The notes beneath the pieces were generated by a model that had not been told where the DNA came from, searched no databases, and saw nothing but the letters and a program-made list of their open reading frames with translations. Shown here piece by piece: positions 7,453 through 29,160 of a stretch of DNA of 64,000 nucleotides; within the stretch, counting starts at the first letter, position 1, and each line of letters opens with the position of its first letter. Origin of the DNA: Robertkochia solimangrovi (GTDB taxonomy: Bacteria > Bacteroidota > Bacteroidia > Flavobacteriales > Flavobacteriaceae); assembly GCF_007279655.1 (NCBI RefSeq), contig NZ_QKWN01000002.1, positions 1-64,000 on the forward strand, in the 5' to 3' direction. The translations under genes and the position numbers were made by a program.

Positions 7453-8661
7453 ATGACTATGAGAGGGATCTTGTGTACAGGAGTGATGGGCTTATTATTG
7501 ACAGCCTGCTCCCATGATGTTATCGATGTGTTGGATCCGGACAATGACACGGATACTGTTAAAACTTTTACGCTTCACATTCCGGATGTTGATGAACTCA
7601 CATCCTCCACCAATTTATTAAAATCTTCTGCGCGTACGCAAACCGGAGATGTTGAGATGTACTTCGAATGTGGCGAATTCTCATTTACGGAAGAGTATTA
7701 CAGTAATAATGAATCCGGTCTCTATTATGTGAACGCCCTTACCGATAACGATGAAATCATCGGTCATCGTTTATATATAACTTTTGGAGTACCGAGCTAT
7801 GTTACGGGGCAGATATCAAATATTGAGGTGGTATCACCGGATCTCGGTGTTATCTACACGGTAGACCAACTAGAAGGATTTAATCGTCATTGGTTTACGG
7901 TGCCTGAAGTTTCTAATGCAATGTATTTAAAATATGAAACGGAATATGGTACTGTTTTGAGTGACCTTGCCACGGCATCACCAAATGGAGTCTCAATAGA
8001 AGTATGTGATTATACACCAGATTGCGATCTACCAGAAATTCAGAAATTATTGAAACTTCTTCCGGATACTTTTACCGTTAACTTCTACGAAGATGAAACC
8101 TTGGTTAAAAGTCTCACGGATCTCACCGCAGGCGATCATACCGTCGAAATAAGAGGAGGGGTTTATGATATCCGGATTGAAAGTCAGTTTTCGGAAAAGT
8201 CCGGGAATTCGATGATTCCTGAGATGACGACTTTAAATCTTCCTTTAACCGGAGGAGACACCGCTGTAGATCTGGCAAGCAATAATACAGTAGAACTGGA
8301 TGTATACAGCGAATATGCCGCTATATTTACACATAAGAAGGAATTACGCGCTTACACGAATAACGGTAGTTCCATCTTTCCATATTTTTTATATAGTGAG
8401 GAAGGCTCTGCCTATGATGAGTTTCCCTTATGGTCAGTAGATTATGGAGCATACTATTTGGCCTTGTTGCATTCTTCTGCGACGAATCCTGAAATGAAGA
8501 TTTTTAGCAGAGAACAGTCAAATGATCCGTTGCTTTATCAACCTGAAAATCTGAAACCACATACGCTTTATAAGTTACGTGTCTGTGATGTTTACGAACC
8601 GAGTATCACCTGGGAACAACGTGAACTTCCAGAGATCCACTTTACGCTTACAAGACAGTAA
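7453..8661 (+). CDS. Lipoprotein of unknown function
   Basis: Not recognised. The 402-residue product begins with a lipoprotein signal peptide: GILCTGVMGLLLTAC, with the lipobox cysteine at Cys19. A short acidic stretch (DPDNDTDT) follows the lipidated cysteine. The remainder is beta-rich, with many Thr, Asn, Tyr and Glu residues and no enzyme motif I can name. It is a single gene flanked by dispersed repeats and followed by a strong terminator, which suggests a lone accessory surface lipoprotein. A second ATG two codons downstream (7459) could also be the start. Confidence 0.75.
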   Translation: MTMRGILCTGVMGLLLTACSHDVIDVLDPDNDTDTVKTFTLHIPDVDELTSSTNLLKSSARTQTGDVEMYFECGEFSFTEEYYSNNESGLYYVNALTDNDEIIGHRLYITFGVPSYVTGQISNIEVVSPDLGVIYTVDQLEGFNRHWFTVPEVSNAMYLKYETEYGTVLSDLATASPNGVSIEVCDYTPDCDLPEIQKLLKLLPDTFTVNFYEDETLVKSLTDLTAGDHTVEIRGGVYDIRIESQFSEKSGNSMIPEMTTLNLPLTGGDTAVDLASNNTVELDVYSEYAAIFTHKKELRAYTNNGSSIFPYFLYSEEGSAYDEFPLWSVDYGAYYLALLHSSATNPEMKIFSREQSNDPLLYQPENLKPHTLYKLRVCDVYEPSITWEQRELPEIHFTLTRQ

Positions 8662-8760
8662 GAGTTAAGAATTAAGAATTAAGAATTAAGAATTATGGAT
8701 TATTAACTGCGTTACTGCTTCACTGTTTCACAAAGTAACATGTAGCAAGTAACTCAGGTC
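8662..8760. repeat. Dispersed intergenic repeats R1 and R2
   Basis: AT-rich text after the lipoprotein stop repeats AAGAATTAAGAATT four times and then TATGGATTATTAACTG (R1). It continues into TTACTGCTTCACTGTTTCAC with GTAAC words (R2), the same order as at 7003-7110. No gene. Confidence 0.6.
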
Positions 8761-8790
8761 ACTCTGGTATTTTGGGCTAAAGGCCCACAA

Positions 8791-8824
8791 ATAGCGACGA
8801 CACTTTACAGTGCGCCAGCAGACG
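8791..8824 (-). repeat. Degenerate hairpin unit related to the 144-bp repeat
   Basis: Read on the minus strand this segment gives TGCTGGCGCA followed, after a few bases, by AAGTGTCGTCGC. The large repeat at 10427-10457 has the same order: TTTTGCTGGCGCAAAAC, then GAGTGTC. It looks like a decayed single unit of that repeat about 1.6 kb away. Short match, so tentative. Confidence 0.35.
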
Positions 8825-8847
8825 AAAAGCTTTTAACCCAACGATAT

Positions 8848-8881
8848 AAAAAAAAGGCTACCTGAAAGGCAGCCTTTTTTT
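8848..8881. terminator. Bidirectional Rho-independent terminator
   Basis: A-tract, then GGCTACC, loop TGAAA, GGCAGCC, then T-tract. The stem works on both strands and sits between the convergent lipoprotein gene (plus) and the peroxiredoxin operon (minus), so it probably ends both. Confidence 0.85.
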
Positions 8882-8920
8882 CTTTTTCTTTTTCAATTTT
8901 TCCCATCGGGAGGGGAGGAA

Positions 8921-9181
8921 CTATTTATCGATAGAACCAAGAACCCTTTGCATAAAGGCATTGAGTGCCTTTTTTTCGTCTAATCCGTCCTCGCGAATCA
9001 TTTTATTGACCTCCAGGGCTCCATACATATTGGAAAGCAATTCTCCTATCACATCCAATTCTTCATCTTTTAATGAAGGTACTTCCGTTATTGCTTCCAG
9101 TGTTTCAATGGTTTCAATAACATAATCCTGGTCGTTCTCAGCGATGAACTTCGATAGTTGTTTAATTACCGGCAGCTTCAT
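8921..9181 (-). CDS. Small conserved protein of the thioredoxin-peroxiredoxin operon
   Basis: An 86-residue, mostly helical, acidic protein (MKLPVIKQLSKFI at the start, NAFMQRVLGS near the end) with no cysteine, signal peptide or membrane segment. From memory of flavobacterial genomes, a protein of this size sits beside this thioredoxin and peroxiredoxin pair (possibly the family labelled DUF6952); I could not check this. Its start overlaps the thioredoxin gene by 20 bp, so translation is probably coupled. A role in peroxide defence is inferred from context only. Confidence 0.8.
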   Translation of the reverse strand: MKLPVIKQLSKFIAENDQDYVIETIETLEAITEVPSLKDEELDVIGELLSNMYGALEVNKMIREDGLDEKKALNAFMQRVLGSIDK

Positions 9182-9476
9182 CTATAAAAGATTTTAGGAC
9201 ATCAGTTTTATTGGTCTGAACCTGGTTCGCTACAGTTCCGTTCTTAAAAACGGCGAACGTAGGAAGGTTATCAACGTTAGCCAGTTTCCTTGATTCAGGA
9301 TATTTCTCAGCATCCACGATCGCAAAAGTTGCATTCTCGTGCTCCTGAGAGAACTTCTTGAACTTAGGCTTCATGATGCGGCAATTACCACACCATCCGG
9401 CTGAATACTGTACAAATACAGTTTCGTTCTCCTTTACCAGTTCAGTTAAATTATCTTGTGCTAATTCTACTAACAT
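9162..9476 (-). CDS. Thioredoxin family protein
   Basis: A 104-residue cytoplasmic thioredoxin-fold protein. The active site is W-C-G-N-C at 28-32, differing from canonical CGPC by Asn for Pro, and the cis-proline loop reads NLPTF. No signal peptide. It lies 7 bp after the peroxiredoxin gene and overlaps the next small gene. It is therefore the likely electron donor to the adjacent 2-Cys peroxiredoxin. The CGNC site should alter its redox potential compared with general thioredoxin. Confidence 0.9.
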   Translation of the reverse strand: MLVELAQDNLTELVKENETVFVQYSAGWCGNCRIMKPKFKKFSQEHENATFAIVDAEKYPESRKLANVDNLPTFAVFKNGTVANQVQTNKTDVLKSFIDEAAGN

Positions 9477-9483
9477 TATATGC

Positions 9484-10122
9484 TTAGTTTACGCTTAAAT
9501 ATTCAGCAACTCCGGTTCTGTTTGCAGACATTGCCTGTTTTCCTTCTTCCCAGTTTGCAGGACAAACTTCACCATTCTTCTGAACGTGTGCATAAGCATC
9601 GATCAAACGAAGGAATTCGTTTACGTTTCTTCCCACTGGCATATGGTTAACACCTTCATGAAATACTAAACCGTCTTCATCGATCAGGTAGGTTGCACGA
9701 TACGTAACGTTATCACCTTCGTAAACATAGGAATCAGTTTCTTCGTTATAGGTTTCAGAAGAAAGATCAAGGATACGAAGCATATTAGCAAGGTTTCTGT
9801 TGCTATCTGCTATCAGTGGATAAGTTACTCCTTCGATTCCACCATTATCTTTTGCAGTATTCAACCAAGCGAAGTGAACTTCAGCAGTATCGCATGAAGC
9901 ACCGATCACTAGGGTATTTCTTTTTTCAAATTCAGGAAGAGCTGCCTGGAAAGCATGTAACTCTGTAGGACAAACAAAGGTGAAATCCTTTGGATACCAG
10001 AACAGGATTACTTTCTTTTTATTCTTGATCGCCTCTTCAAGAACATTGATCTTAAAAGTGTCTCCCATTTCATTCATTGCATCAACTGCAATATTTGGAA
10101 ATTTTTTACCTACTAAAGCCAT
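9484..10122 (-). CDS. Typical 2-Cys peroxiredoxin (AhpC/Prx1 family)
   Basis: A 212-residue peroxidase of the AhpC/TSA family. The peroxidatic Cys51 is in FTFVCPTE and the resolving Cys187 is in EVCPANW, as in typical 2-Cys enzymes. The family motif VIGASCDTAEVHFAW is intact. It leads the three-gene operon peroxiredoxin, thioredoxin, 86-residue protein. The 616 bp between its start and the convergent repeat cassette contains its promoter, which I could not place. ATG start. Confidence 0.94.
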   Translation of the reverse strand: MALVGKKFPNIAVDAMNEMGDTFKINVLEEAIKNKKKVILFWYPKDFTFVCPTELHAFQAALPEFEKRNTLVIGASCDTAEVHFAWLNTAKDNGGIEGVTYPLIADSNRNLANMLRILDLSSETYNEETDSYVYEGDNVTYRATYLIDEDGLVFHEGVNHMPVGRNVNEFLRLIDAYAHVQKNGEVCPANWEEGKQAMSANRTGVAEYLSVN

Positions 10123-10338
10123 TTAAATTTTTGTATTAATGTGTTAAACTTTACCGCAAAAATACGACTTCAGCTCAGGGTGTAACTGCCTTTTAGATTA
10201 TATTAACTTATGATAAAATAGGCTTCTCTAATGGGCGTAAAAAAGAGGGGCGAATTATGATTAATCCTTAATTTTTGGGGGAGGAAATTGTGTACTTCGT
10301 AACGAAAACGTTAGAATGTTTTGGGGTTTTTAAATATG

Positions 10339-10482
10339 AATTTGTACTAACCCAGTGACGTGCACCTGACGGTGCTTAGTGTCGATCTTGATTGCTGACG
10401 CAATCAATTCTCTAGTGTCGCGGGTTGTTTTGCTGGCGCAAAACTCCCTTGAGTGTCCTTACGGCTCGCTTCGCATTGCCTT
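10339..10482 (+). repeat. 144-bp repeat, copy A (left inverted repeat)
   Basis: Identical base for base to the reverse complement of 11196-11339, and nearly identical to 12895-13026. Inside are three hairpins: GCACC-TGAC-GGTGC (10362-10375), TTGATTGC-TGAC-GCAATCAA (10388-10407) and GTTTTGC-TGGC-GCAAAAC (10427-10444). Each is followed by AGTGTC (10378, 10414, 10452), giving a module period of 36-38 bases. No target-site duplication is evident at the outer ends. Confidence 0.9.
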
Positions 10483-10629
10483 TTTGGGTTCGCTGCGCAT
10501 CGCCTTTTTGGGCTCGCTTCGCATTGCTTTTTTGGGCTCGCTTCGCATTGCTTTTTTGGGCTCGCTTCGCATTGCTTTTTTGGGGCTCGCTTCGCATTGC
10601 TTTTTTGGGCTCGCTTCGCATTGCTTTTT
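10463..10629 (+). repeat. 24-bp tandem array, about 7 units
   Basis: Seven units of about 24 bp with consensus GGGCTCGCTTCGCATTGCTTTTT follow copy A directly and overlap its last 20 bases. Unit 2 differs (TTCGCTGCGCATCGCC) and unit 6 has an extra G. Units touch each other with no unique spacers. Long open frames on both strands here, giving peptides such as NAKRAQKS repeated, are a by-product of the 24-base period. Confidence 0.85.
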
Positions 10630-10708
10630 GTACCGGATCGTATTTATTGATCATGTACTTGACATAAATGTCATTTAAAGGATTTTCCATATTTCAATCT
10701 TTTATGTG

Positions 10709-10730
10709 TAGAAAAAATTCTATAATATAG
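10709..10730 (+). promoter_or_regulatory. Palindromic promoter/operator of the four-helix-bundle gene
   Basis: TAGAAAAAATTCTATAATATAG lies 20-41 bases upstream of the start. It begins with the inverted repeat TAGAA-N4-TTCTA. Nearly the same sequence precedes the other two intact four-helix-bundle genes (13341-13360 and 28909-28931 minus), so it is probably a shared promoter with an overlapping operator. The regulator is unknown. Confidence 0.5.
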
Positions 10731-10749
10731 ATTTCTAAACTAAATTATT

Positions 10750-11118
10750 ATGGGAGTAATATCAGATAAGAGTTTTCAATTTGCCTTGAATGTGGTTGAT
10801 GTTTTTAAACAATTAAATTTAGAAAAGAAGGAGTTTGTTATGAGTAAGCAACTTCTTCGCTCAGGAACAGCGATCGGTGCATTGTATCGCGAAGCAGAAT
10901 ATGCGGAAACGAGATTGGATTTTATCCATAAACTTTCCATTGCTCAGAAGGAATGCAGTGAATCTATATACTGGATCGAACTCTTGCGCTTGGCAGAACT
11001 TATCGACCAGAAAGATTATGAAACTCTTACCACCCAATCCATGAACCTGATGCAACTTATAAAAAGATCCATCATAACCGCCAAGTCCAATAAGTCGGAC
11101 AAAAAGGAAGAAAAATGA
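10750..11118 (+). CDS. Four-helix-bundle protein (23S rRNA IVS-protein family), copy 1
   Basis: A 122-residue, mostly helical protein of the TIGR02436/PF05635 family, first known from intervening sequences in bacterial 23S rRNA. Family landmarks are present: SFQFALNVVDVF, LRSGTAIGALYREAEYAE, DFIHKLSIAQKECSESIYWIELL and a basic C-terminus. Related proteins form pentameric barrels, and the Avd protein of diversity-generating retroelements shares this fold; a nucleic-acid-binding role is plausible but unproven. The gene lies between perfect 144-bp inverted repeats, as in an IVS, but no rRNA is nearby. Intact, with a palindromic promoter upstream. Confidence 0.88.
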   Translation: MGVISDKSFQFALNVVDVFKQLNLEKKEFVMSKQLLRSGTAIGALYREAEYAETRLDFIHKLSIAQKECSESIYWIELLRLAELIDQKDYETLTTQSMNLMQLIKRSIITAKSNKSDKKEEK

Positions 11119-11125
11119 GCCTGCG

Positions 11126-11217
11126 AAGAAGAAAACCTGAGCCCGCGATGAAAGCAATGCGGAGCGAGCCCCAAAAGGCAATGCGACAATAAAATAAGGC
11201 AATGCGAAGCGAGCCGT
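11126..11217 (-). repeat. Degenerate array units preceding copy B
   Basis: Three to four diverged units, read on the minus strand as GGCTCGCTTCGCATTGCC, TTATTGTCGCATTGCC, GGCTCGCTCCGCATTGC and a weaker one. They lie inward of the right inverted repeat and mirror the array inward of copy A. The cassette is therefore symmetric even beyond the 144-bp repeats. Confidence 0.6.
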
Positions 11218-11339
11218 AAGGACACTCAAGGGAGTTTTGCGCCAGCAAAACAACCCGCGACACTAGAGAATTGATTGCGTCAGCAATCAAGATCGACACT
11301 AAGCACCGTCAGGTGCACGTCACTGGGTTAGTACAAATT
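11196..11339 (-). repeat. 144-bp repeat, copy B (right inverted repeat)
   Basis: Exact reverse complement of 10339-10482, including all three hairpins. It ends one base before the stop codon of nhaC (11341-11343, minus strand), so it forms the immediate 3' flank of that gene. An RNA crossing both copies could form a 144-bp stem. Confidence 0.9.
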
Positions 11340-11340
11340 A

Positions 11341-12792
11341 TTATTTCTTAACCAACCTCCTGATCTTAATATTCAACGCCGCAAACAATAAGGTCATAAA
11401 CGGACTCAAATAATTGAAAAACGCATACCCCATATAAGAAACCGTATCTACCCCAAGTACGCCACTTTGATAGGCACCACAGGTATTCCAGGGAACAAGA
11501 ACCGAAGTAACTGTACCTGAATCCTCCAGAGTACGACTTAGATTTTCCGGCGCGAGACCTTTATCCCTAAAGGCCTTTGCATACATTTTGCCAGGTACTA
11601 CGATAGCGAGATACTGGTCTGATGCAGTAGCATTCAGAATCACGCAACTTCCTACAGTACTGGCGAATAATCCGAATACCGTATGAAATGCTTTTAGTAA
11701 GGCACCACTGATTCTGGATAAGGCACCAATACCATCCATGATACCACCAAAGACCATGGCACAAAGTATAAGCCAGATAGTCCCGAGCATTCCCTGCATT
11801 CCTCCGGAAGTGAAAAGATCATTAAGAGTAGCGTTAGTAGTTTCAACCGCAGTATCCACGGTGATCGCATTCATTAGTCCTTTATAACCAGAGATAAAAT
11901 TCAGATTGTCTGCCCCGGATACTGCCAGAACGATATCCGGTTGAAAGATCAACGCAAAGATTCCTCCTAAAAGCGTACCTACCAGCAGGGCAGGAAGTGG
12001 AGGCGTTTTCATAACGATCAGACTGATCACGGCAACAGGTACCAGAAACAACCAAGGCGTAATATTAAAAGCTTCATCGATCGATGCAAGCATTCCCGAA
12101 GTATCAGGGGCTGCAGATGTATCTAAAGTTAATCCTATAATTGTGAAAATAATAAGTGTAATAATAATCGTAGGTACCGTGGTAATCGCCATATAACGAA
12201 TATGGGTGAACAGGTCAGTACCCGCCATTGCAGGGGCAAGGTTGGTGGTATCACTCATCGGGGACATTTTATCTCCGAAATAAGCTCCGGATATAACAGC
12301 ACCAGCCGTCATTCCTGAAGGGATTCCCAATGCATTACCAATTCCCACCAGTGCAATACCAACGGTAGCAGAAGTGGTCCAGCTACTTCCGGTAGCGATA
12401 GAAATAATAGCACAGATCACTACACTGGCAGCCAAAAAGAAGGTTGGATTCAAAATTTGTAAGCCGTAATAGATCATGGCAGGGATTACGCCACTGATTA
12501 ACCATGTTCCCGCTAAAGCACCTACAAAAAGCAGAATGAGGATGGCACCGGAGGTCGATTTAATATTATGAGCGACCTCTTCCATCATGGTATCAAAACT
12601 CACTTTGTTCCATAAACCTACCAATGCCGCAACCGCACCTCCAATAAGCAGAATGAACTGATTACTTCCACTGAGTGCATCATCACCATAAACAAAAACA
12701 TTAAAAGCCAGCAGGCCCACTAAAATAACAATAGGAAGCAACGCTTCCCAAATACTCAATTCTTTGTTTTCGATGATCTTTTCGTCTTCCAT
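11341..12792 (-). CDS. nhaC: Na+/H+ antiporter NhaC family
   Basis: A 483-residue inner-membrane protein with about twelve hydrophobic helices. NhaC carriers exchange external protons for internal sodium, as expected in a marine or salt-tolerant bacterium. Typical conserved stretches are present: ATGSSWTTSATVGIALVGIG, GDKMSPMSDTTNLAPAMAGTDLF in the first half, and ASDQYLAIVVPGKMYAKAF and LEDSGTVTSVLVPWNTCGAY in the second. It is a single gene bracketed by repeat copies B (1 bp beyond its stop) and C (103 bp upstream of its start) in opposite orientation, so it could be inverted by homologous recombination. Confidence 0.92.
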   Translation of the reverse strand: MEDEKIIENKELSIWEALLPIVILVGLLAFNVFVYGDDALSGSNQFILLIGGAVAALVGLWNKVSFDTMMEEVAHNIKSTSGAILILLFVGALAGTWLISGVIPAMIYYGLQILNPTFFLAASVVICAIISIATGSSWTTSATVGIALVGIGNALGIPSGMTAGAVISGAYFGDKMSPMSDTTNLAPAMAGTDLFTHIRYMAITTVPTIIITLIIFTIIGLTLDTSAAPDTSGMLASIDEAFNITPWLFLVPVAVISLIVMKTPPLPALLVGTLLGGIFALIFQPDIVLAVSGADNLNFISGYKGLMNAITVDTAVETTNATLNDLFTSGGMQGMLGTIWLILCAMVFGGIMDGIGALSRISGALLKAFHTVFGLFASTVGSCVILNATASDQYLAIVVPGKMYAKAFRDKGLAPENLSRTLEDSGTVTSVLVPWNTCGAYQSGVLGVDTVSYMGYAFFNYLSPFMTLLFAALNIKIRRLVKK

Positions 12793-12894
12793 GAAGTGGG
12801 CTTTTAGGGAGTTTTTTAAAAATTAGTTGTAATGTTACGATTTACTGTGACATTTTCCAAACCTTTATCCAGTGGTAGGTACCATTGGATGAAG

Positions 12895-13026
12895 ATTTGC
12901 ACTAACCCAGTGACGTGCACCTGACGGTGCTTAGTGTCGATCTTGATTGCTGACGCAATCAATTCTCTAGTGTCGCGGGTTGTTTTGCTGGCGCAAAACT
13001 CCCTTGAGTGTCTTTACTGCTCGCTG
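12895..13026 (+). repeat. 144-bp repeat, copy C
   Basis: Same sequence and orientation as copy A from ATTTG(C)ACTAACCCAG through CTTGAGTGTC, with a few substitutions near both ends (C for T at 12900; TCTTTACTG for CCTTACGG near 13010). All three tetraloop hairpins are preserved without change. It leads directly into the array at 13019. Confidence 0.88.
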
Positions 13027-13300
13027 TCGCATCGCTCTATTTTACTGTCGCATTGTTTTCTCGCTGGCGCATTGTTTTCTCGCTGGCGCATTGTTTTCTC
13101 TCGCTGTCGCATTGTTTTCTCTCGCTGTCGCATTGTTTTCTCGCTGGCGCATTGTTTTATTTTACTGGCGCATTGTTTTCTCTCGCTGTCGCATTGTTTT
13201 CTCTCGCTGTCGCATCGCTTTATTTTACTGGCGCATTGTTTTCTCTCGCTGTCGCATCGCCTTATTTTACTGGCGCATTGTTTTTTCGCTGGCGCATTGA
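13019..13300 (+). repeat. 19-23-bp tandem array, about 14 units
   Basis: Fourteen units built on CGCTG(G/T)CGCATTGTTTTCT, some ending in ATTTTA instead. The core GCTGNCGCA is the same as the loop-and-arm core of the hairpins in the 144-bp repeat (GCTGACGCA, GCTGGCGCA), so the array may have grown from that motif. Units are contiguous without spacers. Open frames through this stretch are artefacts of the repeat. Confidence 0.85.
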
Positions 13301-13340
13301 CTGCCGTTTTTGCTTTTGAAAACATCAAATTAAATCTATA

Positions 13341-13360
13341 TAGAAAATTTACTATATTTG
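13341..13360 (+). promoter_or_regulatory. Palindromic promoter/operator of the second four-helix-bundle gene
   Basis: TAGAAAATTTACTATATTTG lies 14-33 bases before the start codon. The last eight bases, TATATTTG, match the Bacteroidota minus-7 consensus TAnnTTTG. The first 14 match the near-palindrome found upstream of copies 1 and 5. Confidence 0.55.
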
Positions 13361-13373
13361 TAAGAAAAAGATT

Positions 13374-13715
13374 ATGAATGATCCCGGATTGACTATATGG
13401 AAACGATGTCTGCATCTAAGTGTTTTATTACATAAGATCACCAGAAATTTAAATTATCCCGATCAATTTAAGATAACAGCGAACATCCGCAGACTTGCTA
13501 TCAGGATACCATCGGTATTGATTTATGGTGCGAGTTTGCAAAATCCGGAAAGTTATCAAACCTATTTAAAAATTACAGTGTCCCTGTTGAATGAGTTAGA
13601 GATCTATTTGAAATTACTTCAAAGTGCAACAGGATACCAAACCCATAAGATCATCCAGTGTGAAGTAAGCGTAATCAGATCTATGATTTGCGACTCCCTG
13701 ATCTCTGAAAACTAA
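13374..13715 (+). CDS. Four-helix-bundle protein, copy 2 (divergent subfamily)
   Basis: A 113-residue all-helical protein. It keeps the general pattern of the family (aromatic and leucine-rich helix 1, then ITANIRRLAIRIPSVLIYGAS in place of LLRSGTAIGALYREA, then YLKITVSLLNELEIYLKLL) but is clearly diverged from the other copies. It is probably a member of the four-helix-bundle/Avd-like superfamily. The fold is a fair guess; the function is unknown. It lies downstream of repeat copy C and its array, in the same order as copy 1 (repeat, array, palindromic promoter, gene). ATG start. Confidence 0.75.
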   Translation: MNDPGLTIWKRCLHLSVLLHKITRNLNYPDQFKITANIRRLAIRIPSVLIYGASLQNPESYQTYLKITVSLLNELEIYLKLLQSATGYQTHKIIQCEVSVIRSMICDSLISEN

Positions 13716-14108
13716 TTTTAAATATTCCTAAAATCCTGTACAAACTTTGAAAGAAGATTTATGCTGAACTATTCGATAAATTAACAAAAGTTAAAAAACG
13801 GGGACCAGATTACATAATACAATTTAGTCTTTTACGGATTATAATTATACTCTTATAAGTATAGAACTACAGGTCCATATTATCCGTTAAATTTTAATGC
13901 TTTCTGTTGTAAGAAAGCAATCGATTATTTTGGTGGTTTCATCGAATACACTGATAATCAGTAAAGTGCGTTAGAGCCTTCTCTGTTTAAACTCTGGTGT
14001 CAAAAAGAAAGAAAAATCGCTATATATTATTGATAATAAGCTATTTACGTGTTTTTCTAATTCATTTATTTGACATAACTTTTGACTTTGAATGCAAATT
14101 GTGATAGC
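13716..14108. other. AT-rich intergenic region
   Basis: No gene seen. It holds one hairpin, TGCTTTCT-gttgta-AGAAAGCA (13898-13919), without a T-tract. The promoter of the downstream sulfotransferase gene should be here but I cannot place it. Confidence 0.4.
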
Positions 14109-14855
14109 ATGGATGTGACCCGAATTTATAATGCGATTCAGAGCCGGGGGAAAAGGAATACCTTAAAAATTGTGAATCGGTTGTATAATGGTTCTTATGA
14201 AGGTGGAAAGATTTTTTGTATCGGACTTCATAAAACCGGTACGTCGACACTCGCTCATTTTGTGGAGTGTTTTGGTTTGAAAGTAACTCATTCTGTTGAT
14301 TGGATCGATAATCCGTCTAAGATCAGTAAGTATGATTTTTTCTCCGATGGTGGAAGTCATTTTGATGGGATGAATGAAATCGATTATAAGTGGCTCTTCT
14401 ATGAATACCCCGATGCGTTGTTTATTCTTCAGACACGGGATACCCGTAAATGGTTAATGTCTAAATTGAGGCATGCGGGTTGGAATGAAGAGACTTGTCC
14501 GGAACCTGATGATATCGCAAAAATAAGTCAGGAAAACTGGAGGGGGAAGACACTCTTACATATTCAGAAATATGTCGAGCACAAAAGTAATTATGAACGA
14601 TCCATACGTGAGTTCTTTGAGGAAAATGGTAAAGATCGATTATATGAAATCGATATAACCGATAAAATGAAGCAGGAGAAATATTTAAAAGGATTGAAGT
14701 CATTTTTAAATCTGAGATCGGTAGTGCCGGTAGAACTTCCTCATTCGAACAGACTTCGAAATAGTTTTAAATTACCTCCGGAGGTTTCAGATTTTATCGA
14801 AAAATTATTTGATGAGGATATTACGGAAAGTTCTGCTAAAAATCAGGCAAGCTAA
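14109..14855 (+). CDS. Sulfotransferase-family protein
   Basis: A 248-residue cytoplasmic protein with a PAPS-binding P-loop, GLHKTGTSTL at 39-48. It also has a second conserved segment, FILQTRDTRKWLMSKLRHAGWN, where the family binds the 3'-phosphate (Arg and Ser/Lys positions). It probably transfers sulfate from PAPS to a carbohydrate. It stands alone, 8 kb before the polysaccharide locus, with its own terminator. I chose ATG 14109; an in-frame TTG at 14082 would add nine residues. The acceptor is unknown. Confidence 0.82.
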   Translation: MDVTRIYNAIQSRGKRNTLKIVNRLYNGSYEGGKIFCIGLHKTGTSTLAHFVECFGLKVTHSVDWIDNPSKISKYDFFSDGGSHFDGMNEIDYKWLFYEYPDALFILQTRDTRKWLMSKLRHAGWNEETCPEPDDIAKISQENWRGKTLLHIQKYVEHKSNYERSIREFFEENGKDRLYEIDITDKMKQEKYLKGLKSFLNLRSVVPVELPHSNRLRNSFKLPPEVSDFIEKLFDEDITESSAKNQAS

Positions 14856-14867
14856 AGAGATATTGTG

Positions 14868-14894
14868 CTCGCTATTGTAAGCAGCGAGGTTTTT
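14868..14894 (+). terminator. Likely terminator of the sulfotransferase gene
   Basis: CTCGCT, a nine-base loop, AGCGAG, then GTTTTTG, 13 bases after the stop codon. The stem is six base pairs, so moderate strength. Confidence 0.55.
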
Positions 14895-14975
14895 GTTACG
14901 ATCAATTAGCTGAATATTTTAATTTCCTGTTTCTCCGTTAACCAAAAGAAACCGGTGTCCTTGAACTTGGTGATC

Positions 14976-15020
14976 ATTACATCGCAAAACGGAGATAGTA
15001 ATCTCCGCTGCGATTGTAAT
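14976..15020. terminator. Long hairpin between convergent genes
   Basis: An interrupted stem: ATTAC-ATCGCA, then inner CGGAGAT-agta-ATCTCCG, closing with TGCGAT-T-GTAAT. It lies 10 bases beyond the stop of the minus-strand lyase gene and between two convergent genes. No clear T-tract, so it may be a terminator or an mRNA 3'-end stabiliser. Confidence 0.5.
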
Positions 15021-20960: not shown

Positions 20961-21326
20961 TTATTCCGAATCTTTATCTTGCATATTTACCTTTGCTGTA
21001 TAGATTGCCTTTGATAAGAGCTTCATTAGCTGTTTAGACTGATAGTAGAGAGGGTCAAAGTCTTTTTTCGATATTTGCTTTGTTGAGCAGAGGAGTGCTA
21101 TCCAGTAGATGGATTCGTTACATTCTTTTTGTGCAATGGCCATTTTATGAATGAAGTCCTTTCTGGATTCAGCATATTCCGCTTTCCGGTACAAAGCACC
21201 TACAGCTACTCCCGAACGTAAAAGTTGTTAACCAATAATTTGATCACGGTCATTTTTGTTAAGTGATTTACAAATTTCTATTATGTCCTTAGCGAATTGA
21301 AAACTTATATCTGAAATGGCGCCCAT
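20961..21326 (-). pseudogene. Four-helix-bundle protein, copy 3, broken by a stop codon
   Basis: Read from ATG 21326 the frame gives MGAISDISFQFAKDIIEI and continues in one frame to 20961 (122 codons, the same length as copy 1). TAA at 21228-21230 interrupts it at codon 33. The stop falls where other copies have Lys or Asn before QLLRSG. Everything after it is well preserved (QLLRSGVAVGALYRKAEYAES, AQKECNESIYWIALL), so the mutation looks recent. Translation could resume only from an internal start. It lies directly after the lpdA terminator, on the opposite strand. Confidence 0.82.
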
Positions 21327-21432: not shown

Positions 21433-21510
21433 TTCACCAGTGTCAATATTGTCGCTATTGTCCCTAGTATCACCAGTGTCACTATTGTCCCTAGCATCAC
21501 CAGTGTCCCT
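21433..21510. repeat. Tandem R3 repeats
   Basis: Units built from ATCACCAGTGTC and ACTATTGTCCCTAG alternate about three times. The same family is at 259-293 and 7176-7200. It lies upstream of the broken four-helix-bundle copy 3 (on its own strand) and 170 bp before the FMN reductase gene. Confidence 0.6.
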
Positions 21511-23676: not shown

Positions 23677-24029
23677 TTAGTGTTTTGAATTTTCTTTTGT
23701 TGAGATTATTATTTTGGTTAATATTTTCATGATACTCATACATTTTTCATTAAGCTCTTTAATTTTTATGTGATCAACAAAGGATGTTTTTTCCAAAATC
23801 GCAAGCCAATATATGGTTTCATTGCATTCCTTTTGGCAATAGCTGATTTATGAATAAAATCAGCTTTGGATTCAGCATATTCGGCTTCTCTGTAAAGAGT
23901 ACCTATTGCTGTTCCTGAACGAAAAATTTGTTTACTTAAAAGAAATTCATGATGTTTCTTTTGTAGGATTTGATAATAATGAAGAATTTCAATTGCAAAT
24001 TCGAAACTTAGGTCTTTTATAACATTCAA
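23677..24029 (-). pseudogene. Four-helix-bundle protein, copy 4, broken by a one-base deletion
   Basis: From ATG 24029 the frame reads MNVIKDLSFEFAIEIL and SKQIFRSGTAIGTLYREAEYAESKADFIHKSAIA, then leaves the family sequence at about 23832-23838. There GCCAAAAGG stands where GCNCAAAAGG is expected. Shifting one base restores QKECNETIYWLAILEKTSF and a normal C-terminus, ending at TAA 23677-23679 (ISTKENSKH). The total of 353 bases is one short of 118 codons. A simple recent deletion explains this; programmed frameshifting is less likely. Confidence 0.82.
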
Positions 24030-28159: not shown

Positions 28160-28521
28160 TATATTGATTATCTGTAAAAATCACAATTAAAATCACTCTT
28201 TTTAATTCTAATAATTATTCGGATTTCACAGCAATAATTTATGATATTGTCGTTTAATTGAATGAATAATTAGCTAACATTTAATTGTGGAAAAGTTGTC
28301 CTATTTTTAAGGTTAAGAGTTAGTTAAAACGGGAATTTTTTGTTCTCTTTGTTATAAATCCCAACCCATCTATCCGGCATAAAATGTGACCGGATACGGC
28401 GAAGCCGTGGGGCGGATTATGGATTAAGAGTTATGAATTAAGAATTAAGGATTAAGGATTATGGGTTATGGATTATGGATTAAGAATTTAGAATTAAGAA
28501 TTATGGATTAAGAATTAAGGA
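28160..28521. other. Intergenic region with hairpin and R1 repeats
   Basis: No gene. A GC-rich island near 28374-28416 in an AT-rich setting includes the hairpin ACGGC-GAA-GCCGT and CCGGATACGG words. Bases 28417-28520 are R1 repeats (GGATTATGGATTAAGAATT in several permutations). Confidence 0.5.
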
Positions 28522-28887
28522 TTATGGATTATGTATATCTCTGTTGTTGTTTTTTGTGGTTAATATGATTGATATTAGAATTTTTTTTAATCTTTTTGAT
28601 TGTTTCTCTAGTGGAGTTAGATGTGACGGAGTTAATTCGCCTGTGGTTTTTAAGAGCTTAAGCCAATATATGGATTCATTACATTCTTTTAATGCTATCG
28701 ATAGTTTATGTATGAAATCTTTTGTTGATTGGGCATAAGTAGCCTCAGCATATAAGGCAGCAACGGCGGTACCTGATCGTAAAAGTTGATTACTGATTAT
28801 AAACTCTTTATTCTCCTTTTGTAATTTTTTACAGCAATGATAAATCTTAACAGCAAAATCAAAACTTTGTTCTCTAATAGCATTCAT
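28522..28887 (-). CDS. Four-helix-bundle protein (23S rRNA IVS-protein family), copy 5
   Basis: A complete 121-residue member of the same family as copies 1, 3 and 4: MNAIREQSFDFAVKIYH, NQLLRSGTAVAALYAEATYAQ, DFIHKLSIALKECNESIYWLKLL and a basic Lys/Arg/Asn-rich tail. It is on the minus strand inside the polysaccharide locus, between upxY and rfbB, opposite to all neighbours. It has the shared palindromic promoter upstream but not the 144-bp repeats; R1 repeats lie on both sides instead. Function unknown; RNA or DNA binding is inferred from the family. Confidence 0.87.
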   Translation of the reverse strand: MNAIREQSFDFAVKIYHCCKKLQKENKEFIISNQLLRSGTAVAALYAEATYAQSTKDFIHKLSIALKECNESIYWLKLLKTTGELTPSHLTPLEKQSKRLKKILISIILTTKNNNRDIHNP

Positions 28888-28931: not shown

Positions 28932-28943
28932 CAAAATAAAAAA

Positions 28944-29160
28944 CAATTAATCCTTAATCCATAATGCATAATTCAAAAAGCTTTAAGTTTGTTGAATCAA
29001 AAAGGGAAAATACCGATCATTAAGAATCAAAAAACCAATTAATCCTTAATCCATAATTCTTAATTCAAAAAGCTTTAAGGATGTTATTTCAAAGAGGATA
29101 ATTGCCGATCATTAAGAATCAAAAACCAATTAATCCTTAATTCTTAATCCATAATTCAAA
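28944..29160. repeat. About 92-bp tandem duplication, 2.4 copies
   Basis: Units start at 28944, 29036 and 29127 with CAATTAATCCTTAATCCATAA-like text (third unit partial). Shared interior words are TTCAAAAAGCTTTAAG and CGATCATTAAGAATCAAAAA. The ends are R1 repeat text, so slippage or recombination between R1 repeats may have created it. It is the upstream region of rfbB. Confidence 0.7.

Follow-up and report, generated by a model that had tools for sequence, protein, structure and literature searches.

The described systems closest to the locus analyzed here are the intervening sequences (IVSs) in the 23S rRNA genes of Coxiella and Leptospira, in which an S23p/IVP gene, of the same protein family as the gene studied here, lies in the loop of a stem (PMC4990558, text available in part). 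The Coxiella IVS protein is believed not to be produced in vivo, according to the available sections of that paper (PMC4990558). Heptameric repeats of the GGGNATC type have been described in Xanthomonas and Nostoc. Two Xanthomonas genomes contain 70 and 75 convergent inverted heptamer pairs, Nostoc PCC 7120 contains few pairs and no plasmid copies, and the heptamer loci are reported to be stable and in general unassociated with mobile elements; the terms 'S23' and 'four helix' have no occurrences in the available part of the text (PMC4692102).

The window, a 64,000-nucleotide stretch from Robertkochia solimangrovi (contig NZ_QKWN01000002.1, positions 1 to 64,000), contains at 10339-11339 a cassette that an earlier note had described as an IVS-like layout, with a gene in the loop, outside rRNA. 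This description proved accurate. The two 144-bp arms, each a copy of a dispersed repeat (R), are exact reverse complements, and the match stops at their outer ends. A single credible gene and no transposase were found between them, and the stop codon of nhaC starts at 11341, a single base (11340) beyond the right arm (Table 1). The gene product matches PF05635 (E 8.6e-21, 74.6 bits against a cut-off of 33.8) and TIGR02436 (E 1.7e-24, 86.2 bits against a cut-off of 24), with a solved relative in PDB 2rld (E 1.8e-29). Two features of an IVS are therefore present, namely terminal inverted repeats (the exact 144-bp arms) enclosing a gene in the loop, and an IVP/S23 four-helix-bundle (4HB) protein encoded by that gene. 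The cassette is located between prx and nhaC, outside any 23S rRNA gene, and an RNA family search of positions 8000-15000 of the window returned no rRNA family. The RNA fold of 10340-11338 has an energy of -515 kcal/mol, compared with -269 ± 8 in 20 shuffles, a low value of the kind that any long inverted repeat gives. No target-site duplication is visible at 10329-10338 / 11340-11350, where the congeners are too diverged to fix the junction.

Table 1. Features of the cassette, its neighbors and the other 4HB genes of the window
Feature	Position	Strand	Evidence or remark
prx, left neighbor; brackets the insertion site together with nhaC	9484-10122		prx-nhaC adjacency kept in 4/4 congeners
Left inverted arm, R copy	10339-10482	+	Exact reverse complement of 11196-11339
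Left arm, three-hairpin core following a 15-bp lead	10354-10457	+	R copy alignment
Tail of left arm, tandem array, unit 24-25 bp, 6 overlapping copies	10457-10629	+	
TAGAAAAAATTCTATA palindrome, promoter/operator-like	10709-10724	+	Recurs upstream of 4HB genes in the genus
4HB (IVP family) gene, 122 aa	10750-11118	+	PF05635, TIGR02436, PDB 2rld
Shorter tail array of right arm, inverted relative to left tail	11119-11195	-	Inverted repeat pairs
Right inverted arm, second R copy	11196-11339	-	Repeat search, arm comparison
nhaC-type Na+/H+ antiporter, right neighbor	11341-12792	-	PF03553
Third R copy, other side of nhaC	12894-13035	+	121/124 bases identical to arm over the compared stretch
Tail array of third R copy	13036-13300	+	Sequence; period-21 window
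TAGAAAATTTACTATA motif of second 4HB gene	13341-13356	+	Palindrome pattern search
Second 4HB gene, one-sided	13374-13715	+	PF05635
4HB pseudogene, internal TAA, 16-bp perfect inverted match AGTGACACTGGTGATA	21012-21308	-	Score 32
Broken 4HB gene, arms not detected	23716-24014	-	
4HB gene between inverted AATTAAGAATTATGGATT-type arrays	28522-28887	-	Inverted score 56, direct 24

We conclude that 10339-11339 probably represents a filled instance of an IVS-like mobile cassette, consisting of arm, 4HB gene and inverted arm, that occupies an ancestral prx-nhaC gap and has no recognized transposase; how it moves, and whether its protein binds the arms, we infer. The earlier note had suggested mobility, and had named fixation of the cassette at this site in all relatives as an observation that would speak against it. 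In all four congeners the prx-nhaC gap measures 146-207 bp and lacks both gene and arrays, so the cassette is not fixed, and an empty orthologous site, as expected of a mobile element, exists at prx-nhaC.

Similar differences between species were found at other sites of the five genus genomes (G000 to G004). The mscL-asd gap is empty in G004, and G001 has an arm-gene-arm arrangement at asd. The purD gap is empty in G003 and occupied by arm-gene-arm in G004, by a gene with arrays that match more weakly (28-32) in G002, and by a degenerate 4HB gene in G001. In the assemblies compared, gene and arrays are both absent from six empty sites that have the same neighbors. Arrays lacking a 4HB gene were seen at the tpx site of G004 (L064, 10728-11517) and beside asd in G002 and G003 (L216, L217), where the upstream neighbor differs. 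These arrays are nested or one-sided, of heptad or octad type, contain no 4HB frame, and lie at or near the cassette sites of other species. The arrays may thus in part outlast or precede the gene; we read the gene-free arrays as remnants, and they could instead be targets.

At the 3' end of purD in G002 and G004 (L220/L223), a perfect 15-bp fold-back of the purD sequence upon itself was noticed by eye where the cassette begins, with a sequence that differs between the species. No such fold-back was seen in G003 or G000, both of which lack a cassette there.

By a two-flank test, the 51 4HB genes of the five genomes fall at 39 sites, which is an upper count because 18 further pairs share one flank; nine sites are common to at least two genomes. 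Two of the shared sites are occupied by genes from both major clades of the tree (15 and 36 rows, split 100/99, bootstrap not settled), and several 4HB copies are broken. The spread of sites and the mixture of clades fit repeated insertion with quick decay.

The occurrence of inverted arms was assayed by aligning the 560 bp upstream of each gene to the reverse complement of the 560 bp downstream, with a threshold score of at least 35. In the genus, in which each genome has 7-15 PF05635 matches, 26 of 51 4HB loci reached this threshold, compared with 61 of 2550 mismatched flank pairs (9/504 within one genome) and 1/51 in direct orientation. Among other ORFs, all taken from repeat-rich surroundings (window, R loci, nhaC loci), 4/228 did so; when only other ORFs with gaps of 80 bp or more to either side were counted (77), nhaC alone reached 35, by way of the R copies around it. 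The 51 loci derive from 58 PF05635 rows. Four fragments were merged or counted with a neighbor (G004:C3:519541, G004:C3:512253, G001:C6:353383 and one G000:C14:237xx), three weak fragments were excluded (G004:C3:514769, G004:C3:514900, G001:C1:14931), and the adjacent G002:C70:7421 and 7824 were counted as two loci.

The arrangement is not confined to the genus. 4HB/IVP genes were present in 85 of 118 Bacteroidota genomes sampled, and from these matches 90 loci were taken, 30 as returned by the search and 60 chosen among the matches listed (high-scoring, spread over genomes and selected before their flanks were seen). Inverted arms scoring at least 35 were found at 34/90 of these loci (mismatched pairs, 63/8010; direct orientation, 4/90). 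At the threshold used, arms were absent from 25/51 genus and 56/90 phylum loci. Plasmid genes were represented by 18 of 32 matching records, all cyanobacterial, with 400-bp flanks. Here 10/18 loci scored at least 30 (17/306 mismatched, 1/18 direct), and 7/18 scored at least 35 (12/306 mismatched). Clear arms were also seen in four of five named relatives identified by sequence (a Bacteroidia MAG, Bacteroides oleiciplenus, Flammeovirga aprica and a Clostridia MAG); the fifth was ambiguous, with direct and inverted scores alike.

As judged from these alignments, 4HB genes outside rRNA often bear two arms that match each other and differ from locus to locus. Inverted arms around such genes are common, and the finding is broader than the earlier note had supposed, the 144-bp repeat being local arm material and not a hallmark. 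No report of inverted heptad arms around 4HB genes was recognized in the literature searched, which comprised largely titles and the starts of abstracts, with few subscription journals.

Three cyanobacterial plasmid loci (L231, 1189-1548; L232, 1189-1557; L238, 1189-1545) have a 4HB gene either between cas6 and cas4, with a type I-D neighborhood in L232, or between cas10 and a Cmr3-family gene. The 23S rRNA IVP domain is named in a figure legend of a CRISPR survey (PMC10910872, available in part).

Among the other 4HB genes of the window, the one at 13374-13715, which the earlier note did not mention, is a weaker family member (PF05635, 34.2 bits against 33.8; TIGR02436, 26.7 against 24), and a downstream arm was not found there, the inverted score of 22 lying within the shuffles. 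The inverted score of the pseudogene at 21012-21308 lies under the threshold of 35 and over the shuffle maximum of 28. Beside this pseudogene, 27-bp tandem repeats with CACCAGTGTC occupy 21436-21510; their AGTGTC/AGTGAC motif is reminiscent of the one in R, and R may be derived from such an arm. Low-complexity DNA of the AATTAAGAATTATGGATT type was observed at 28420-28535 and 28940-29160, flanking one 4HB gene, and again at 8661-8700. Such DNA may be left over from older 4HB cassettes.

The arms vary in sequence among loci, with units such as GGGTTAT, GGTTATGA, GGTCGGT, AGTAATC and GGGAACA, among others. The best period among 60 arms was 7 in 38/60 and 8 in 15/60. On the strand reading into the gene, G exceeded C in 25/26 genus and 29/34 phylum upstream arms. 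The arms are mostly tandem heptads or octads with G over C on the coding strand before the gene. Strictly periodic windows lie upstream of 28/51 genus 4HB genes, compared with 15/224 control ORFs; in the phylum sample they were found at 9/90, hardly over the controls, which suggests that outside the genus the arrays have less length or have decayed further.

At 30/51 genus loci the 5' arm is followed, ahead of the gene, by a palindrome of the type TAGAAAATTTTCTATA, against an expectation of 0.005 per 160 bp for the strict pattern. A looser form was found at 0/90 phylum loci. This palindrome resembles the Bacteroidetes -7 promoter box. Transcripts starting there would carry only the 3' arm.

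What is special to the cassette at prx-nhaC is that its arms are made of the dispersed palindromic repeat R of the species. The earlier note had named wide spread of the 144-bp repeat without linked 4HB genes as an observation that would refute its reading. The repeat does recur, with 24 matches in the 4.4-Mb genome, a number that includes partial copies and copies at contig ends. In the 17 other R loci that were fetched, some shortened by contig ends, no 4HB sequence was found at E 1e-3. The repeat is spread without linked 4HB genes, and R alone therefore does not define the cassette.

An alignment of 20 R copies (19 distinct) showed three common hairpins with AGTGWC-type motifs between them; the GC-rich tandem tails that follow the copies vary. 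The hairpins are preserved through two-sided changes, seen in 14 of 379 cells and 6/20 pairs (shuffles, 3.0 cells and 1.4 pairs). In the copy at L046 6256-6379, inspected by eye, a long unrelated stem takes the place of the first hairpin and the second stem also differs, so that the structure is kept while the sequence is replaced. By DNA search, R was found in its own genome and in none of 59 other relatives, including the four congeners (1/60). A covariance model likewise recovered R from its own genome only (1/249 family genomes), in a shallow search that scored 14 candidates per genome in the entries listed, among which G002 is the only one of the four congeners. Plasmids and phages gave no match at E 1e-5. 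A known RNA family as the identity of R was rejected, with no match at E<=1 over the R copies within positions 8000-15000 of the window. A partner gene common to the R loci was also rejected: two ORF pairs (27-31% identity) and two translated-repeat matches were found, and none recurs at many loci.

Several contigs of G000 (C1, C4, C5, C6, C7, C11, C17) terminate in or near R copies and tail arrays. The arrays are hence perhaps longer than assembled, and R copies under-counted.

The dispersal of R bears on the alternative that the arms are two REP/MITE-like repeat copies, inserted in opposite orientation around a 4HB gene by chance at this locus. The 24 matches of R and the 17 R loci lacking a 4HB gene are consistent with such a coincidence, and nhaC, which also lies between inverted (outward) R copies, tops the control list. 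However, 2/6 4HB loci of this genome touch R, where about 0.05 would be expected, although these two loci are neighbors and may represent one event, and the other 4HB loci have unrelated arms that are equally inverted. We regard chance insertion as possible, though not likely.

A second alternative is that the arms were selected as RNA, with a read-through stem that protects or terminates the transcript, or undergoes RNase III cleavage like the stems of 23S rRNA IVSs, and with the gene as a harmless passenger or stem-binder. The cyanobacterial plasmids lend themselves to this account. There, 14/18 4HB genes are co-directional with both listed neighbors (2/18 run against both and 2 are mixed), in counts that include the near copies L236 and L237 and rest on incomplete gene tables, and in many of them the arms are no more than about 45 bp away from the frame. 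The Coxiella IVS offers a precedent, with a 28-bp stem, excision by RNase III and heptamers before the ORF (PMC4990558, in the sections available). An RNA role is thus suited to the cyanobacterial genes, which run with both neighbors. In the genus studied here, however, the 5' arm contains the promoter-like motif, and the gene opposes both neighbors at the tpx and nhaC sites and faces purD at the purD site. Even on the plasmids, the best arms of the cas6-cas4 cases lie at least 158 bp upstream, and the cas10-Cmr3 case, with a score of 29, narrowly misses the threshold. Selection of the arms as RNA seems to us a tenable but improbable general account.

Alternatively, the arms could be scars of replication or repair, produced by slippage and fold-back template switching near small mobile genes, with no role for the protein. 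Tandem arrays also lie upstream of 15/224 control genes, and the perfect 15-bp fold-backs noticed by eye where purD ends in G002 and G004 would suit this origin. It leaves unexplained, however, why matching inverted pairs occur at 4HB genes and hardly at other genes (4/228), and we consider it unlikely. The resemblance of PF05635 to Avd of diversity-generating retroelements (PMC10053308, available in part) could suggest that the arrays are written by a reverse transcriptase with the 4HB protein as its Avd-like partner, but RVT_1 is absent from 5/5 genus genomes, each with its 7-15 PF05635 matches, which makes such a partnership most improbable.

Returning to the preferred reading, a mobile arm-gene-arm cassette, its arms at prx-nhaC are identical to each other, whereas the other long R copies differ by 6-18% and the third copy by 2%. 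A perfect match between the arms amid diverged copies points to a recent duplication or conversion, and we propose that the two R arms became identical by one or the other of these routes. The 4HB protein may bind one strand of the array, at 7-8 nt per subunit, or the hairpin; the Xanthomonas relative forms a five-membered ring, according to the available part of its description (PMC4990558). The cassette could move through a single-stranded hairpin, of RNA or DNA, and fold-back repair of this hairpin would use one arm as the template for the other. If a cassette is part of an operon, as on the cyanobacterial plasmids, the stem could also be excised from the transcript, as RNase III does with 23S rRNA IVSs.

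Searches for the enzymes of known partners gave negative results. Y1_Tnp (PF01797) had 0 matches in the R. solimangrovi genome, with 5/14 control genomes positive, and RVT_1 (PF00078) had none in the five genus genomes (0/5), with 3/14 control genomes positive. RAYT and retroelement partners are thus unlikely, and a RAYT was disfavored as the partner given the lack of Y1_Tnp in the own genome.

Protein and arm similarity were correlated (Mantel r 0.185, with 0/2000 permutations as high), but the highest-identity pairs are near-identical orthologues, and for this reason we draw no conclusion on protein-arm specificity from the correlation. Against the proposed mechanism, near-identical orthologues showed no compensatory arm changes: in a trio the self and cross scores were equal, a group of four was mixed, and a pair showed none. 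At the tpx site, the cross-species pair of the G002 upstream and G003 downstream arms (41) scored as high as the self pair of G003, and at the purD site G002 reached no more than 28. The published statements on the Coxiella IVS protein (PMC4990558) and on the stability of the heptamer loci (PMC4692102) also count against the preferred reading.

4HB/IVP genes are common in Bacteroidota, and the literature read assigns them no function beyond rRNA inserts and DGR-like settings. If they belong to arm-gene-arm mobile cassettes, they would constitute a large class of bacterial mobile elements lacking a recognized transposase, and an origin would be offered for inverted heptameric repeats so far described without one. 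The direct question raised would be whether the protein binds its own heptad strand. A wider proposal, which we put forward as a speculation with the odds well against it, is that a widespread class of transposase-free mobile elements encodes 4HB (IVP) proteins as its only agents, each cassette bringing its own pair of inverted heptad arms, which the ring protein would recognize strand by strand. Scattered heptamer repeats in Bacteroidota, in cyanobacteria and possibly in Xanthomonas, together with dispersed palindromes like R, would then be non-autonomous relatives or footprints of these elements, as REPs are of RAYTs.

REP and BIME elements are extragenic hairpin repeats associated with RAYT (Y1) transposases. 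R is like them a dispersed extragenic hairpin repeat, but differs in having three hairpins with AGTGWC motifs and in residing in a genome from which Y1_Tnp is absent. The GGGNATC repeats of Xanthomonas and Nostoc share with the arms described here a heptad period, G-richness and an intergenic location, but have one common motif per genome, unlike the locus-specific arms (PMC4692102, in the available part). The P6b stem of the Nostoc trnL intron resembles the heptad stem in consisting of complementary 7-nt repeats that expand and are exchanged; it lies within a group I intron and, in the text available, is not described with a gene in the loop (PMC4476775). Avd of diversity-generating retroelements is a related four-helix bundle (PMC10053308, in part), whereas no reverse transcriptase was found in the five genus genomes (PF00078). 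The 23S rRNA IVSs remain the closest comparison, and the heptamer repeats beside the Coxiella ORF resemble the heptad arms (PMC4990558, in the sections available). Unlike these IVSs, the cassettes described here are intergenic or intercistronic, occupy many sites per genome and have no rRNA host; their arms are locus-specific tandem arrays and, in this genus, a promoter-like motif lies near the gene. Because of its location outside rRNA, the cassette at 10339-11339 does not belong to the class of 23S rRNA IVSs, and is IVS-like in its layout.
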